Shown piece by piece: positions 5,146 through 62,809 of a stretch of 64,000 nucleotides of DNA. The number at the start of each line of letters is the position of its first letter. The stretch's first letter is position 1. This DNA is from Candidatus Rokubacteria bacterium 13_1_40CM_69_27 (GTDB lineage: Bacteria > Methylomirabilota > Methylomirabilia > Rokubacteriales > CSP1-6): contig MNEF01000124.1 of the NCBI GenBank assembly GCA_001917535.1, forward strand, positions 1 through 64,000, written 5' to 3'. The position numbers were made by a program, and so were the translations under genes. The notes under the pieces were generated by a model. It was not told where the DNA came from, searched no databases, and was given only the letters and a program-made list of their open reading frames with translations.

Positions 5146-5222
<77 letters not shown>

Positions 5223-5235
5223 CACCGACCCGCCT

Positions 5236-5241
5236 ATTGTA
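5236..5241 (-). promoter_or_regulatory. -10 box for tRNA-Pro(CGG)
   Basis: TACAAT (5 of 6 to consensus) lies 14 nt upstream of the mature tRNA 5' end, inside the pcm-tRNA gap. No good -35 is visible at 16-18 nt, so the tRNA may also depend on read-through from surE-pcm. Confidence 0.35.
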
Positions 5242-5246
5242 CAGGC

Positions 5247-5897
5247 TCACGTCTCCCAAGCATACTTGCCCACCAGCTTCACGAACATGCAATCGCCGCA
5301 GGGGGTAAACCGCATCTCGCCGCCCACGTGCTCGACGAGAGTCAGCGTCTGATTGCTGGTGTCCCCGATGGGAAGGACCATGCGCCCGCTTTTGGCCAGC
5401 TGCTCGAACAGGGGCGGCGGCATGCTCGGCGCACCAGCGGCGACGAGAATCCGGTCGAAGGGCGCCTCGTCCGGCCAGCCCAGCGTGCCGTTGCCGACGC
5501 GGATCCAGACGTTGTTGTAGCCGAAGCCTTCCAGGACGGCGCGCGCCCGCAGGGCCAGGCTGGGCAGCCGCTCGATCGAGCAGATGCGCCGCGCCAGCAG
5601 GGCCAGGATCGCGGTCTGGTAGCCGGAGCCCGTGCCGACCTCCAGCACCTTCTCCTGGCCGTCGAGGGCCAGGAGGGAGGTCATCAGCGCCACGATGTAG
5701 GGCTGGGAGATGGTCTGCTGCTCGCCGATGGGCAGCGGATGGTCGCCGTAGGCGCGGTCCCGCAGCGCCTCCTCGACGAAGAGATGGCGCGGCACCCGGC
5801 GCATCGCGTCCAGCACGCGGGCGTCGGTGATCCCGCGGCGGACCAGCTGCTCCTCGACCATCCGCTCGCGCTCGCGCTCGAAGCCGCCGCGCTCCAT
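5247..5897 (-). CDS. pcm: Protein-L-isoaspartate O-methyltransferase
   Basis: A protein of 216 residues. It transfers a methyl group from SAM to L-isoaspartyl residues, starting repair of aged proteins. The family block [14 protein letters not shown] (57-70) with the conserved Ser64, motif [17 protein letters not shown] (84-99) and the C-terminal [15 protein letters not shown] strand are all present, and the length matches the bacterial enzyme. The start is ATG 5897, 3 nt after the surE stop. It is part of the surE-pcm-nlpD-rpoS stress cluster. Confidence 0.95.
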
Positions 5898-15036: not shown

Positions 15037-16719
15037 CTACCAGAGTCGTCGAACCTCCCGCCGGACGTCCTGGAGCGAGATCCGGCTCATCGTCGGACGC
15101 CCGTGGGGACAGAAGTACGGAGTCCCGGTGGCGGTCAGCTCGGCCACCAGCCGCTCCATTTCCTCGCGCGCCAGTGGCGTGTTGGCCTTGATGGCGGCGC
15201 GGCAGGCGACGAAGGCCAGCGCGCGATCGAGCACCGGCTGCCCGCCCTTGGCGCCCGCCAGCTCGTCCACCGCCGCCTCGATGAGCCGCTTGGGCTCGTC
15301 GGCCTCGAGCACGCTCGGGACCGCGCGCAGGACGATCGTGTCGCCCCCGAATCCCTCGAAGGCGAACCCCAGGCGCTCGAGCGGCTCGCGCCAACGCTCG
15401 AGCAGGGCGCGGGCCGCAGGCGCCAGCGCCAGCGGCTCTGGAAACAGGAGCGCCTGGGAGGCGGGGGCGCCGGCGGCAACCTCGGTCTCCAGGCGCTCGA
15501 AGACGACCCGCTCGTGGGCGGCGTGCTGGTCGAGGAAGAACACCTCCTTGTCGGACGCCGAGACGATGAAGGTGTCCTGCACCTGGCCGAGCACCCGGCC
15601 GAAGTCGGCGGCCCCGTAGGCGGCGGGAGCTTCGGCGAACAGCGTCGCCGGCTCCAGGGTCTCGAGCGTACCGGGCATCCGATCGTCCCGGCACGTCCCG
15701 GAGGGCGCGACCTCGACGGCGGGGACGACGGCCTTCTGGTGCAGCGCCTCGGCCAGCGCCGCCACCACCATCTCGTGGACGAGTCGCGGGTGGCGGAAGC
15801 GCACCCAGGCCTTGGTCGGATGGACGTTGACGTCGACGTCGGCGAAGGGCAGCGCGATGGTCAGCGCGACCAGGGGGAAGCGGTCGCGCGGGAGCAGCGG
15901 CCGGTAGGCTTCGAGCACCGCCTGGAAGAGCGCGGGATCGCGCACCGGCCGCCCGTTGACGACGATGACGACGTCGTCGCGGCCGCCCCGCGTCAGGTCG
16001 GGCGGGCTGGCCACGCCCCGCACATCGACCCCGTGCTCGGCGCGGCCTATGCGCAGGAGGCGCTCGCCGACCTCGTAGCCCCACAGCGCGCCCACGCGCG
16101 ACCTCATGTCCCGGGCCACCGGCGCCGTGAGCGTGACGCGGTTGTCGCTCGTCACGCGGAACTGCACCTCCGGATGGGCGATGGCGAGCTGGGTCAGCAG
16201 CCTCAGGCAGGCGCCGACTTCGGTGGCCGGCGATTTCAAGAATTTCAGCCGCGCGGGAGTGTTGAAGAAGAGGTCGGCCACCTCCACCGTCGTGCCGACC
16301 TCCGCCGGCAGCGTCAGGCGCTGGCCGATGCTCCCGCCGGCGCCGGCGATGCGCGTGCCCTCGGCGGCGCCGCGCGCGCGGGTCGTGATGGTGAAGCGGC
16401 AGACGGCACAGATCGCCGGCAGCGCCTCCCCGCGGAAGCCCAGGGTGCCGATCGCCGCCAGATCCTCCTCGCTGGCGAGCTTGGAGGTCGCGTGGCGCTC
16501 CAGGGCCAGGGCGAGCTCCGCGCCGGTCATGCCCAGGCCGTCGTCGGCGATGCGGACCAGCGCCGTCCCGCCGTCGCGCAGATCGATGGCAATGGCCCGG
16601 GCCTCGGCGTCCAGCGCGTTCTCGACCAGCTCCTTGACCACGGAGGCCGGCCGCTCGACGACCTCGCCGGCGGCGATCTTGTTGATCAGGTGGTCGGGGA
16701 GCCGCCGGATTCGACTCAT
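15037..16719 (-). CDS. mutL: DNA mismatch repair protein MutL
   Basis: A protein of 560 residues from ATG 16719 (GAGGAG site upstream). The GHKL ATPase has ELVENALDA (30-38), IADDGLGM (57-64) and GFRGEAL (94-100). After a short linker the C-terminal domain carries FLDQHAAHERVVFE, a full DQHA(x)2E(x)4E metal-binding endonuclease motif, so this MutL should nick DNA itself, as in bacteria without MutH. The 18-codon start region is duplicated 161 bp upstream (see the fragment at 16722-16880). Confidence 0.95.
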   Translation of the reverse strand: MSRIRRLPDHLINKIAAGEVVERPASVVKELVENALDAEARAIAIDLRDGGTALVRIADDGLGMTGAELALALERHATSKLASEEDLAAIGTLGFRGEALPAICAVCRFTITTRARGAAEGTRIAGAGGSIGQRLTLPAEVGTTVEVADLFFNTPARLKFLKSPATEVGACLRLLTQLAIAHPEVQFRVTSDNRVTLTAPVARDMRSRVGALWGYEVGERLLRIGRAEHGVDVRGVASPPDLTRGGRDDVVIVVNGRPVRDPALFQAVLEAYRPLLPRDRFPLVALTIALPFADVDVNVHPTKAWVRFRHPRLVHEMVVAALAEALHQKAVVPAVEVAPSGTCRDDRMPGTLETLEPATLFAEAPAAYGAADFGRVLGQVQDTFIVSASDKEVFFLDQHAAHERVVFERLETEVAAGAPASQALLFPEPLALAPAARALLERWREPLERLGFAFEGFGGDTIVLRAVPSVLEADEPKRLIEAAVDELAGAKGGQPVLDRALAFVACRAAIKANTPLAREEMERLVAELTATGTPYFCPHGRPTMSRISLQDVRREVRRLW

Positions 16720-16820
16720 CGTCACCCGCGCTCCTCGTTTTCGCCGCTTCGAGCGCGGGCTTCGCCCGCGCACTCCTGGGGGGAGGCTTCGGAAGGGGGG
16801 CGAAGCCTCCCTCCGAGGTT
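16665..16820. repeat. Direct repeat, copy 1 (mutL start + family A element)
   Basis: The run from mutL codon 18 back through the start codon and the GC-rich dyad element is repeated, with scattered differences, at 16826-17024. The offset is 161 bp at the mutL start; identity is nearly complete over the first 55 bp and high through the dyad at 16753-16771. Confidence 0.85.
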
Positions 16821-16880
16821 CACCGCGCCGGCGGCGATCTTGTTGATCAGGTGGTCGGGGAGCCTGCGGATCCGGCTCAT
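16722..16880 (-). pseudogene. Duplicated mutL 5' end: 52-codon ORF between mutS and mutL
   Basis: ATG 16880 overlaps the mutS stop (ATGA) and opens a 52-codon frame. Its first 18 residues are identical to MutL (MSRIRRLPDHLINKIAAG). It then jumps to AVNLGGRLRPPSEASPQ, which copies the repeat-derived MutS tail, and ends with a TGA 2 nt before the real mutL ATG. Sequence and spacing show a tandem copy of the mutS-tail/repeat/mutL-start junction. It has its own GAGGAG site and may be translated as a coupling peptide; I doubt it has a function as a protein. Confidence 0.75.
16753..16820. repeat. Family A dyad element, copy A1
   Basis: Hairpin I is GCGCGGGC-ttc-GCCCGCGC (16753-16771). A CTCCTGGG spacer follows, then hairpin II GGGAGGCTTCG (16781-16791) pairing with CGAAGCCTCCC (16801-16811), then CTCCGAGGTT. 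No U-run follows either stem on either strand, so it is not a plain intrinsic terminator. Confidence 0.8.
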
Positions 16881-17024
16881 CCTCGGCGCTCCTCGTCTTC
16901 ACCGCGTTCGAGCGCGGGCTTTGCCCGCGCAATCCTGGGGGAGGTCTCGGAGGGGGCCGCCGAGGCCCCTTCCGACGGAGGAAGGGGGGCGGAGCCCCCC
17001 TTCGAGGAAAGCCCCCCTCCGAGG
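16826..17024. repeat. Direct repeat, copy 2 (inside mutS 3' end)
   Basis: This is the partner of 16665-16820. It is longer because its family A element holds an extra hairpin. It contains the mutS stop codon and the duplicated mutL start. Both copies end in CCGAGGTTC at the joint with unique mutS sequence, a short homology that could have seeded the duplication. Confidence 0.8.
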
Positions 17025-19570
17025 TTCTGTTGCCACTTGGCGAGCAGGTTGAGCGCCTCGATCGGCGTGAGGTGCGCGAGGTCGAGCCGGGCCAGCTCCG
17101 GCGCGATCGGGTCCGGCGACGGCGCGAAGAGGCCCAGCTGGGTGGCGTCGTGGGCATCGGCGGAGAGCTGACCTGCCGTCTCCAGCTCGGTCAGCAGCGC
17201 CTTGGCGCGCGTGATCACCGGCGCCGGCAGCCCGGCCAGGCGCGCCACCTGGATCCCGTAGCTGCGGTCGGTGGAGCCGGAGCGCACCTTGTGCAGGAAG
17301 ATGATCTCGTCGTTCCACTCGCGCACGGCGACGTGGAAGTTGCGCACCCCGGGCAGCCGGTGGGCGAGCTGGGTGAGCTCGTGGAAGTGCGTGGCGAAGA
17401 GCACCTTGGCCCCCGCGCGCTCCTGCAGGGCTTCGACGACCGCCCAGGCGATGGCGAGCCCGTCGAAGGTCGAGGTGCCACGCCCCACCTCGTCGAGGAG
17501 GACGAGGCTGCGCGCGGTGACGTTGTTCAGGATGTTGGCCGTCTCGACCATCTCGACGAGAAACGTGCTCTGGCCCCGCCCGAGGTTGTCCTGGGCGCCG
17601 ACCCGCGTGAAGACGCGATCGACCACGCCGATCCGGGCCTCGCGGGCGGGGACGAAGGCGCCCATCTGGGCCAGAATGACGATGTGCCCCGTCTGCCGCA
17701 GGTAGACGGACTTGCCGGACATGTTGGGGCCGGTGAGGATGACGATGCGCGCGTCGCCGTCGAGCGCGAGATCGTTCGGCGCGACGGGCTCGCCGGCGCG
17801 GGCCTCGAGCACGGGATGGCGGCCGTCGACGATCACGAGCGCCTCGCCCCGGTCCACGGTCGGGCGCACGTGACCCCGGACATGGGCCACCTCGGCCAGC
17901 GCCGCCAGGACGTCGAGCCGCGCGAGCGCCCGGGCCGTCGTGAGCAGCTCGCCCGCGCGCCCGGCGACGCGCCGCCGTACCTCCTCGAACAGCTCGTACT
18001 CCAGCCGCCGTCGGCGCTCCTCGGCGCCCAGCACCGTGGCCTCGTACTCCTTGAGCTCGGGCGTGATGTAGCGCTCGGCGCCGGTGAGGGTCTGGCGGCG
18101 GACGTACTCCGCGGGCACGCGGGAGACCTGGGCGTGGGTCACCTCGATCCCGTAGCCGAAGACGCGGTTGAAGCGCACGCGGAGGCTCGGGATGCCGGTG
18201 CGGGCGCGTTCCCGCTCCTCGAGGCCGGCGATCCACTGGCGCGCCGCCCGGGCGTCGTCGACGATCGCGGTGAGCGCCTCGCTCCAGCCCTGGCGGATGA
18301 TCCCGCCCTCGTGCAGCGCGAGCGGTGGCTCGTCCAGGAGAGCGTCGCGGAGCAGGGCGTGCAGCTCACCGAGGGGCACCAGGTCTTCCCGGGCGGCGGC
18401 GATCAGCGCGGGCCTCATCTCCACGACGCCCGCACGGATCTCGTCGAGCGGCTCCAGGCACGCGCGCAGCCCGACGAGGTCGCGAGCGTGGGCCACGCCG
18501 AGCGTGGCCCGGCTCGTCAGCCGCTCCAGATCCCCCACGCGCTCGAGCAGCGCCCGCAGCCGGCCGCGGGCGGCCGGCGCCTCGATCAGAGCCCCGATCG
18601 CGTCCTGGCGCTCGCCGATCGCCGCCGGATCGAGCAGGGGCTGCAGCAGCCACTGCCGGAGCAGCCGGCCCCCCATCGGCGTGACCGTCTCGTTGATGAC
18701 GCCGAGGAGTGACGTGCGGCCGTCGCCCTCCCGGGATTCCAGCAGCTCGAGCGTCTCCGCTGCCGTCCGATCGACGGTCATGACGTCGGCGGTAGCGAGT
18801 CGCTGGAGCCTCGTCAAGTGGTTGAGCGTGGCGTCCTGAGTGGCGCGCACGTACGCGAGCGCCCCACCCGCTGCCGAGAGTCCTCCTGTCATGTCGGCGA
18901 GCCCGAAGGCGTCCAGCGTGGGCACGGCGAAGTGGGCGGCGAGGTCGGCGGCGGCGCGGCGGAGGGCGAAGGGCGCCGGGTCCCAGAAGGTCAGCGTCGC
19001 GCCGGTGGCCTGGAGACGCCCGAGGAGGTCGGGGCTCTCCCGCAGCGACTCGGGGACGACGATCTCCGCGGGCCGGCGCAGGAGCGCCGCATCCAGCACG
19101 CCGGCCTCCCCGGGTCGATCCTCGCCGACCCAGAACTCGCCGGTGGAGACGTCCAGCAGCGCAACGCCGGTCGCCTCACGGAGCCGCGCCACCGCCAACA
19201 GGAAATTGTTGGCGACCCCCTTGAGGTACGCAGTGTCGGTGATGGTTCCCGGCGTGATGAGCCGGACCACGTCGCGCCGCAGGAGCTTCTTGCCCTTCCC
19301 CGGCGCCTCCATCTGCTCGCACAGCGCGATCTTCCAGCCCGCCTGCACGAGCCGGGCGATGTAGGCATCGGCGGCGTGGTGCGGGATGCCCGCCATCGGG
19401 GCGCCCTGGCGGGCGGTGAGCGTGATCTGCAGCTGTCGCGCCCCTTGCTCGGCGTCCTCGAAGAACAGCTCGTAGAAGTCGCCGAGGCGGAAGAGAAGCA
19501 GGTAGTCGGGAAAACGGCGCTTGAGCTCCCGATACTGCCGCATCATCGGACCGCCGGGGGACTCAGCCAC
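16877..19570 (-). CDS. mutS: DNA mismatch repair protein MutS
   Basis: A protein of 897 residues. The mismatch-binding domain I starts near residue 10 and has the Phe-x-Glu motif in LGDFYELFFEDA. Connector, lever and clamp domains follow (ITPELKEYEATVLGAEERRRRLEYELF). The ABC ATPase has TGPNMSGKSVYLRQ, FLVEMVETANILNN, LVLLDEVGRGTSTFDGLAIAWA and ATHFHEL. The normal family end is near LLAKWQQNL; residues 851-897 are encoded by a family A repeat (Gly/Pro/Ser-rich, then acidic-basic). It recognises mismatches with MutL. It overlaps the HIT gene by 8 nt. Confidence 0.96.
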   Translation of the reverse strand: MAESPGGPMMRQYRELKRRFPDYLLLFRLGDFYELFFEDAEQGARQLQITLTARQGAPMAGIPHHAADAYIARLVQAGWKIALCEQMEAPGKGKKLLRRDVVRLITPGTITDTAYLKGVANNFLLAVARLREATGVALLDVSTGEFWVGEDRPGEAGVLDAALLRRPAEIVVPESLRESPDLLGRLQATGATLTFWDPAPFALRRAAADLAAHFAVPTLDAFGLADMTGGLSAAGGALAYVRATQDATLNHLTRLQRLATADVMTVDRTAAETLELLESREGDGRTSLLGVINETVTPMGGRLLRQWLLQPLLDPAAIGERQDAIGALIEAPAARGRLRALLERVGDLERLTSRATLGVAHARDLVGLRACLEPLDEIRAGVVEMRPALIAAAREDLVPLGELHALLRDALLDEPPLALHEGGIIRQGWSEALTAIVDDARAARQWIAGLEERERARTGIPSLRVRFNRVFGYGIEVTHAQVSRVPAEYVRRQTLTGAERYITPELKEYEATVLGAEERRRRLEYELFEEVRRRVAGRAGELLTTARALARLDVLAALAEVAHVRGHVRPTVDRGEALVIVDGRHPVLEARAGEPVAPNDLALDGDARIVILTGPNMSGKSVYLRQTGHIVILAQMGAFVPAREARIGVVDRVFTRVGAQDNLGRGQSTFLVEMVETANILNNVTARSLVLLDEVGRGTSTFDGLAIAWAVVEALQERAGAKVLFATHFHELTQLAHRLPGVRNFHVAVREWNDEIIFLHKVRSGSTDRSYGIQVARLAGLPAPVITRAKALLTELETAGQLSADAHDATQLGLFAPSPDPIAPELARLDLAHLTPIEALNLLAKWQQNLGGGLSSKGGSAPLPPSEGASAAPSETSPRIARAKPALERGEDEERRG
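16912..17024. repeat. Family A dyad element, copy A2 (translated in MutS)
   Basis: Hairpin I is GCGCGGGC-ttt-GCCCGCGC (16912-16930), followed by AATCCTGGGGGAGG. Hairpin II is CGGAGGGGGCC pairing with GGCCCCTTCCG, and an additional hairpin AAGGGGGGC-gga-GCCCCCCTT and a GCCCCCCTCCGAGG end complete it. On the minus strand it lies in the mutS reading frame. Confidence 0.8.
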
Positions 19571-24493: not shown

Positions 24494-24500
24494 CACCTGT

Positions 24501-24570
24501 CGGAGGGGGCCTCGGCGGCCCCCTCCGAAACCTCCCCCGGGACCGGTTGCGCCGGCGGAGCCGGCGCTCG
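24501..24570. repeat. Family A dyad element, copy A3 (aroA-cmk junction)
   Basis: CGGAGGGGGCC (24501-24511) pairs perfectly with GGCCCCCTCCG (24517-24527). AAACCTCCCCCGGGACC follows, then hairpin I GCGCCGGC-gga-GCCGGCGC (24549-24567). The order is inverted relative to A1/A2. It lies in the transcribed gap between aroA and cmk, ending 8 nt from the cmk ATG. Confidence 0.8.
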
Positions 24571-62695: not shown

Positions 62696-62809
62696 CCTCG
62701 GAGGGGGGCTTCGCCCCCCTTCCGAAACCTCCCCCCAGGCCAGGATTGCGCCGGCGAAGCCGGCGCTCGAACCACGCCGGCGGTTGCGCCGGCAAAGCCG
62801 GCGCTCGAA
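62696..62809. repeat. Family A dyad element, copy A4 (ribBA-ribH junction)
   Basis: Hairpin II GAGGGGGGC-ttc-GCCCCCCTT (62701-62721), then CCGAAACCTCCCCCCAGGCCAGGATT, hairpin I GCGCCGGC-gaa-GCCGGCGC (62748-62766) and a second hairpin I GCGCCGGC-aaa-GCCGGCGC (62786-62804). It fills the 173-nt gap between ribBA and ribH. Confidence 0.82.

Follow-up and report, generated by a model that had tools for sequence, protein, structure and literature searches.

The mutS-mutL junction

The window analysed, a stretch of 64,000 nucleotides from Candidatus Rokubacteria bacterium 13_1_40CM_69_27, lies in the source genome that we call G000 and carries mutS and mutL on either side of a short open reading frame, ORF52, and two copies of a repeat element; all of these features are on the minus strand (Table 1). 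A first-pass annotation had described a doubled mutS-mutL junction with a 52-codon reading frame coupled to mutS by ATGA, and this arrangement is present in the sequence as described. The direct repeat (16661-16723 and 16822-16884) is 63 nt long with 90% identity and 161 nt from start to start, and the repeat-element blocks (16748-16816 and 16907-16975) are 75% identical at a spacing of 159 nt. The two copies of MutL codons 1-18 differ at four nucleotides, all four synonymous.

Table 1. Features of the doubled mutS-mutL junction in G000, in window coordinates.
Feature	Position	Strand	Remarks
mutS	16877..19570	minus	MutS I-V domains; E1 encodes the C-terminal tail beyond ...LLAKWQQ
Extra GC-rich half-element, upstream of element copy 1	16976..17027	minus	missing from G001
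E1, two-hairpin element copy 1, within mutS 3' end	16907..16975	minus	orthologous copy in G001
U, remnant (original-position) mutL start, codons 1-18 and flanks	16822..16884	minus	ATG 16880; ends 5 nt before E2
ORF52, 52-codon mini-ORF from the U start through E2	16722..16880	minus	TGA overlaps mutL GTG (GTGA)
E2, two-hairpin element copy 2, first-hairpin subtype unlike E1	16748..16816	minus	MFE -45.7, z -2.9
Spacer with Shine-Dalgarno-like GAGGAG and GTG (16725-16723)	16723..16747	minus	start choice inferred
mutL, intact; start GTG 16725 or ATG 16719; D copy of start 16661-16719	15037..16725	minus	

The mutS stop (TGA, 16879-16877) overlaps the ORF52 ATG (16880) as ATGA. ORF52 ends with a TGA at 16724-16722, and the mutL ATG at 16719 follows 2 nt on, as had been noted; the choice of that ATG as the functional start overlooked a GTG at 16725 that is in frame with mutL. 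This GTG appears to be the likelier mutL start, given its GTGA overlap with the ORF52 stop and the GAGGAG located 5 nt ahead of it. The Shine-Dalgarno sequence is better spaced for the GTG than for the ATG, and the choice is backed by the sister species described below, in which the counterpart of the GTG is the sole possible mutL start. ORF52 had also been said to contain a further copy of the MutS tail that derives from the repeat, which holds for its last few residues only; the hairpin is read in another frame, and the remainder is therefore out of frame. In relatives the MutS tail ends soon after KWQ. Within 16880-17027 of the window, the tail after LLAKWQQ corresponds to element copy 1, which G000 and the sister species read in different frames to the same terminal TGA.

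The junction in a sister species and in other relatives

The single congener compared was a sister species, G001, whose MutL is 94% identical in amino acid sequence to that of G000 and whose four-fold-site divergence from G000 is 11.5% in mutL and 11.0% in mutS. Its junction comprises an ortholog of E1, an additional mutL start that breaks off at about nine codons, a second element of reduced length, and mutL itself, which begins with GTG. The mini-ORF between the genes (MSRIRWLSDREGLRRPSRRSKEERE) has 25 codons, reads the hairpin in another frame than ORF52 and shares no tail with it; it retains ATGA with mutS and GTGA with mutL. Since G001 shares the doubled junction with a different mini-ORF, the comparison indicates that the duplication is real and predates the split of the two congeneric species, and that the mini-ORF is not conserved as a protein. 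The comparison with related genomes that had been proposed thus came out in favor of both copies, and an assembly artefact is ruled out. Chance origin is likewise excluded, because the same architecture occurs in an independent genome and a second MutL-start match of such length is rare (one of 57 family genomes searched).

Among about 40 other relatives scanned, we found no duplicate of the mutL start before mutL, in a scan blind to very short remnants. In those genomes mutS and mutL often overlap, lie very close to each other or are parted by other repeats. Junctions that are very tight or have ATGA or GTGA overlaps occur in other genera and were taken as ancestral. Plasmid DNA compared with the junction gave matches confined to the mutL coding sequence.

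A two-hairpin element widespread in the order

The repeat is an element of about 72 nt with sharp edges, composed of TCGGAGGGGGCCTCGACGGCCCCCTCCGA, a CCTCCCCC linker and GCGC[G/C]GGCRAAGCC[C/G]GCGC-TCGAA; its second stem shows a compensatory C/G swap, and it folds strongly (see E2 in Table 1). Core matches number 169 in G000 and 162 in G001, that is, more than 100 copies per genome. We found the element in 52 of 57 family genomes and in 55 of 60 order genomes, and elsewhere in the class as one copy in one of 35 genomes. Named relatives place the group in Candidatus Rokubacteria/Rokuibacteriota. Copies lie mainly just past a stop codon: 126 of 187 have one no more than 14 nt upstream, compared with 36 in the control. 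The element is also nearly free of stop codons (84 observed versus 346 expected from shuffling), and each of the six frames is open in 89-98% of copies. More copies lie in the window at 24500-24570 and 62698-62809, one of them with a second hairpin copy directly after it.

Short, palindromic, many-copy and mainly extragenic repeats are the hallmark of REP/REPIN sequences, which are associated with RAYT transposases and which this element resembles in its hairpins, its more than 100 copies and its location largely at gene ends. When we searched with PF01797 for a Y1 (TnpA-REP) transposase, G000 (93.6% complete) yielded no match and G001 a single split one; the negative result in G000 disfavors RAYT-driven mobility. 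The GTAG and CGTC tags typical of REP were present at the palindrome foot (last 12 nt) in only 7 and 8 of 187 copies, so the element lacks that tag consensus; it differs from REP/REPIN also in its terminus duplications and near stop-free frames. Rfam contained no family above the gathering threshold for the element, with two sub-threshold chance matches. We found no description of the element or of the insertion process in the open-access literature searched, which does not in itself prove absence.

Duplicated gene termini recur at the element

For each element copy in G000 and G001, a 20-nt stretch whose end lies 2-6 nt short of the element's 5' edge was sought again within 220 nt downstream, with a match defined as at least 16 of 20 positions. 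Anchored duplicates were recovered at 12 of 178 copies (~7%). Controls at offsets of 100-225 nt gave 0-1 matches; those at 60-65 nt gave 4, because this offset falls inside the longer duplications. Between the end of the remnant copy and the 5' edge of the element are 2-5 nt, and the intact copy lies on the far side of the element. By reading order, the duplicate is usually the terminus of the adjacent gene at a co-directional tight or overlapping pair; two of the 12 anchored cases, C9 and C10, are tandem element units and not gene termini. In the genera of G003, G006 and G009, 5 of 48 element copies had such an anchored duplicate, with less clean controls (0-3 at other offsets), and one of these has a near-identical duplicate of ~105 nt. 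Duplications span ~24-105 nt and their copies have often diverged, unlike the fixed-length, identical copies expected of a transposon.

Genes other than mutS and mutL were named from their translations, without family searches. On this reading, C2 is presumably the start of a cobalamin-binding-domain-like gene; C3/C7 and L251 we take to be a gene 3' end at an apparent queA-tgt junction, shared by both species and also present in genus g5; and C8 is presumably the end of hslV and start of hslU, again in both species. Further gene-terminus cases are the mutL start itself, C4, C5, C6 and C11. At C3/C7 (L156:1389-1461 and L148:314-385), the 24-nt copies flanking the orthologous element are identical within each species, and two positions distinguish the species in both copies alike, a pattern that argues for exchange between the copies (concerted evolution). 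At L182 (~5176-5290), a single junction shows a third duplication round: downstream of the second element, a stretch of ~60 nt with the gene's 3' end is itself repeated near-identically in tandem.

The coupling frame is kept through the element

An incidental mini-ORF would place a stop next to a start equally often after removal of 1 or 2 nt from the element. We observed that a mini-ORF through the element links both genes at 11 of the 12 comparable duplicated junctions, the one without a coupling ORF being C11, whereas in silico deletion of 1 nt left 1 of 12 coupled and deletion of 2 nt left 3 of 12. Orthologous junction pairs retain the frame despite unlike lengths of element and spacer. 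The claim that coupling was preserved through the duplication is thus strongly supported, and because of the contrast with the shifted controls, coupling looks to be under selection. The test is strong but not overwhelming, since its 12 rows represent only ~8 independent loci; counted by locus, 7 of 8 are coupled, for which we estimate a chance of ~0.003 at 1/3 per locus.

Empty sites and recoded termini

Orthologous sites without the inserted copy were found for C4 (L184/L232), C11 (L194/L233), C9 (L155/L239) and C5 (L155/L174). At C4 and C5, only the first element is present in the other species, without the inserted copy and its duplicate; at C11, it has no element at all and its genes meet in a TGATG stop/start overlap. 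A site without the inserted copy and with a single terminus in the other species, the pattern of transposon insertion, was observed at C4, C11 and C5. This polarity analysis left out C2, whose G000 orthologue is near a contig end, and C10, whose orthologue was not found in G001.

The ancestral context is preserved at the remnant; it is the intact terminus beyond the element that has been altered. This functional terminus often carries synonymous changes, and the remnant has an ancestral appearance: over mutL codons 3-8, the remnant differs from G001 mutL at 1 of 18 nt and the functional start of G000 at 4 of 18. The new terminus at C11 differs at 12 of 51 nt, compared with 19 of 249 just inside it, and encodes a nearly identical peptide. 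Altogether, codon differences between duplicate copies comprise 33 synonymous and 13 nonsynonymous changes.

Proposed explanation and its alternatives

At the level of sequence, insertion with duplication of the terminus at the element edges, and maintenance of the frame, are evident. We consider it probable that a two-hairpin, nearly stop-free repeat of ~72 nt repeatedly entered tight or overlapping operon junctions with duplication of the adjacent terminus, and that a ribosome relay keeps the genes coupled. At a junction with a 4-nt overlap, an insertion would disrupt one of the genes or the ribosome-binding site of that gene, so that only terminus-duplicating insertions would survive. We infer such survivorship at overlapping junctions, together with a two-step termination-reinitiation in which ribosomes leaving mutS would restart at ATGA, translate the predicted ORF52 across the element and restart at GTGA to produce MutL. 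Selection would act on the frame through the element, and the ORF52 peptide itself would not be the selected product. Different mechanisms may be required for cases with one element and for cases with two. The first-pass annotation was right in its local observation and its coupling reading is largely vindicated, the junction being one case of an order-wide insertion process.

The altered copy might instead have been imported, a possibility that we regard as doubtful. A fragment starting at the 5' edge of the element and carrying a diverged gene terminus would have come from the orthologous junction of a relative, with gene homology fixing one end, end-joining the other, and the resident terminus displaced. 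The remnant that matches the sister or empty site beside a recoded functional copy, at mutL and C11, is what import predicts, and the same contrast at the start and promoter of C5 and the excess of synonymous differences between copies also favor it. A parallel exists in fungal mitochondrial hybrid genes, where the same pattern of recoded and native termini was ascribed to transfer with a mobile endonuclease element (PMC3630166). However, no relative stood out as a donor for the recoded start of mutL or for the terminus at C11 (30 family orthologues compared for C11, whose functional (D) terminus has simply family-typical codons), the copies at C2 and at C3/C7 are identical, and the spacer after the element, by eye, is partly like the resident upstream flank, as expected of local duplication. 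Local duplication could have arisen through hairpin-provoked replication slippage in place, in which the nascent strand, once the element has been copied, folds and primes synthesis anew at an upstream position, giving a tandem of element, spacer and terminus without transposition; we hold this, too, to be rather unlikely. Slippage fits the two similar elements with similar spacers at C2 and C6, the duplicates that begin at the element edge and the repeated duplication rounds at L182, but not the unlike E1 and E2 subtypes at mutL, C4 and C5, the missing first element at C8, C11 and C3/C7, or the empty orthologous site at C11. A simple local tandem duplication of the mutS-tail/repeat/mutL-start unit, as first proposed, is likewise unsupported in view of the differing E1 and E2 subtypes and of the single-element duplications and empty orthologous sites found elsewhere.

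Recombination between the copies had also been suggested to toggle mismatch repair. Precedents are mutL switching through small tandem repeats, by mutL inactivation (PMC2955026), and SpyCI of Streptococcus pyogenes, a phage-like island with an integrase that silences mutL at its 5' end (PMC3430984). A 39-nt exact repeat is a plausible substrate for recombination, and concerted evolution at C3/C7 suggests that copies exchange. By inspection, however, both mutL and mutS stay intact when the 161-bp unit is lost or gained; because removing one unit gives back a normal mutS-ATGA-mutL junction and inactivates nothing, the toggle is unsupported. With mutL intact in both species and the same architecture at genes without a repair role, we consider a switch very improbable. 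ORF52 as a real small protein gene we find scarcely credible: it has an open frame, a start and an SD-like sequence, but no Pfam match, and its conservation, the check proposed for this reading, fails in the 25-codon counterpart of G001.

Relation to known systems

Rickettsia palindromic elements are short palindromic repeats that are open to translation and lie inside genes. The Rokubacteria element is also translatable and lies inside a gene in the mutS tail, but it has another sequence, belongs to another phylum and lies mostly at junctions, with terminus duplication. Like the mORF insertions in atp6, cox2 and nad3 of the fungi Allomyces and Glomus (PMC3630166), it combines a mobile element with a duplicated terminus, of which the native copy is sister-like and the inserted copy diverged; unlike them, it carries no endonuclease gene, spans ~72 nt that are non-coding save for read-through, and affects both gene starts and gene ends. 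Like the SpyCI islands, the insertion at this junction separates mutS from mutL at the 5' end of the latter; unlike them, it has no integrase and leaves mutL intact. As in termination-reinitiation at ATGA or GTGA, 4-nt stop/start overlaps occur at both joints; here, two overlaps stand in series, joined by an element-derived mini-ORF, with reinitiation predicted. We see about an even chance that this is an order-specific mobile hairpin element that enters overlapping junctions, regenerates the terminus by variable-length duplication or import with the frame kept for a ribosome relay, and represents an endonuclease-less bacterial counterpart of the fungal mitochondrial terminus-duplicating elements.

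Compact operons with overlapping genes could thus take insertions, the terminus being duplicated and the stop-free palindromic repeat letting a mini-ORF restore coupling. The recurrent junctions, mutS-mutL included, offer a natural replicated test of the strength of selection on translational coupling, and pairs of empty and filled sites provide a route to catching the insertion mechanism.

Other repeats near the element and the junction

Other repeats were noted in the same surroundings. In other Rokubacteria genera, MutS tails bear a different repeat (mutS 3' ends in L077 and L074), which in L077 forms three tandem units around HPRSEPGDERSHAAPVSG, and the gap downstream of mutL is filled in L013 and L036, also of other genera, by other GC-rich tandem repeats (GCTCGCCTCGCCTGGCGGCTGCG...). 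In G001, elements at L131, L133, L154, L159 and L160 are immediately preceded by a sequence of ~90 nt whose ends are inverted (CTAGTGCCGTTCCAAC...GTTGGAACGGCACTAG) and which looks like a separate miniature transposon. At least three 3' extensions of the element are recurrent (CGGTGGYTACTCCGACGCG..., ACGGCGAGCAGT... and GGAGCACGCTCGGCACGCGATACCAC...; for example at L167:5896, L124 and L211:7571), and their end often coincides with the stop codon of the following gene.
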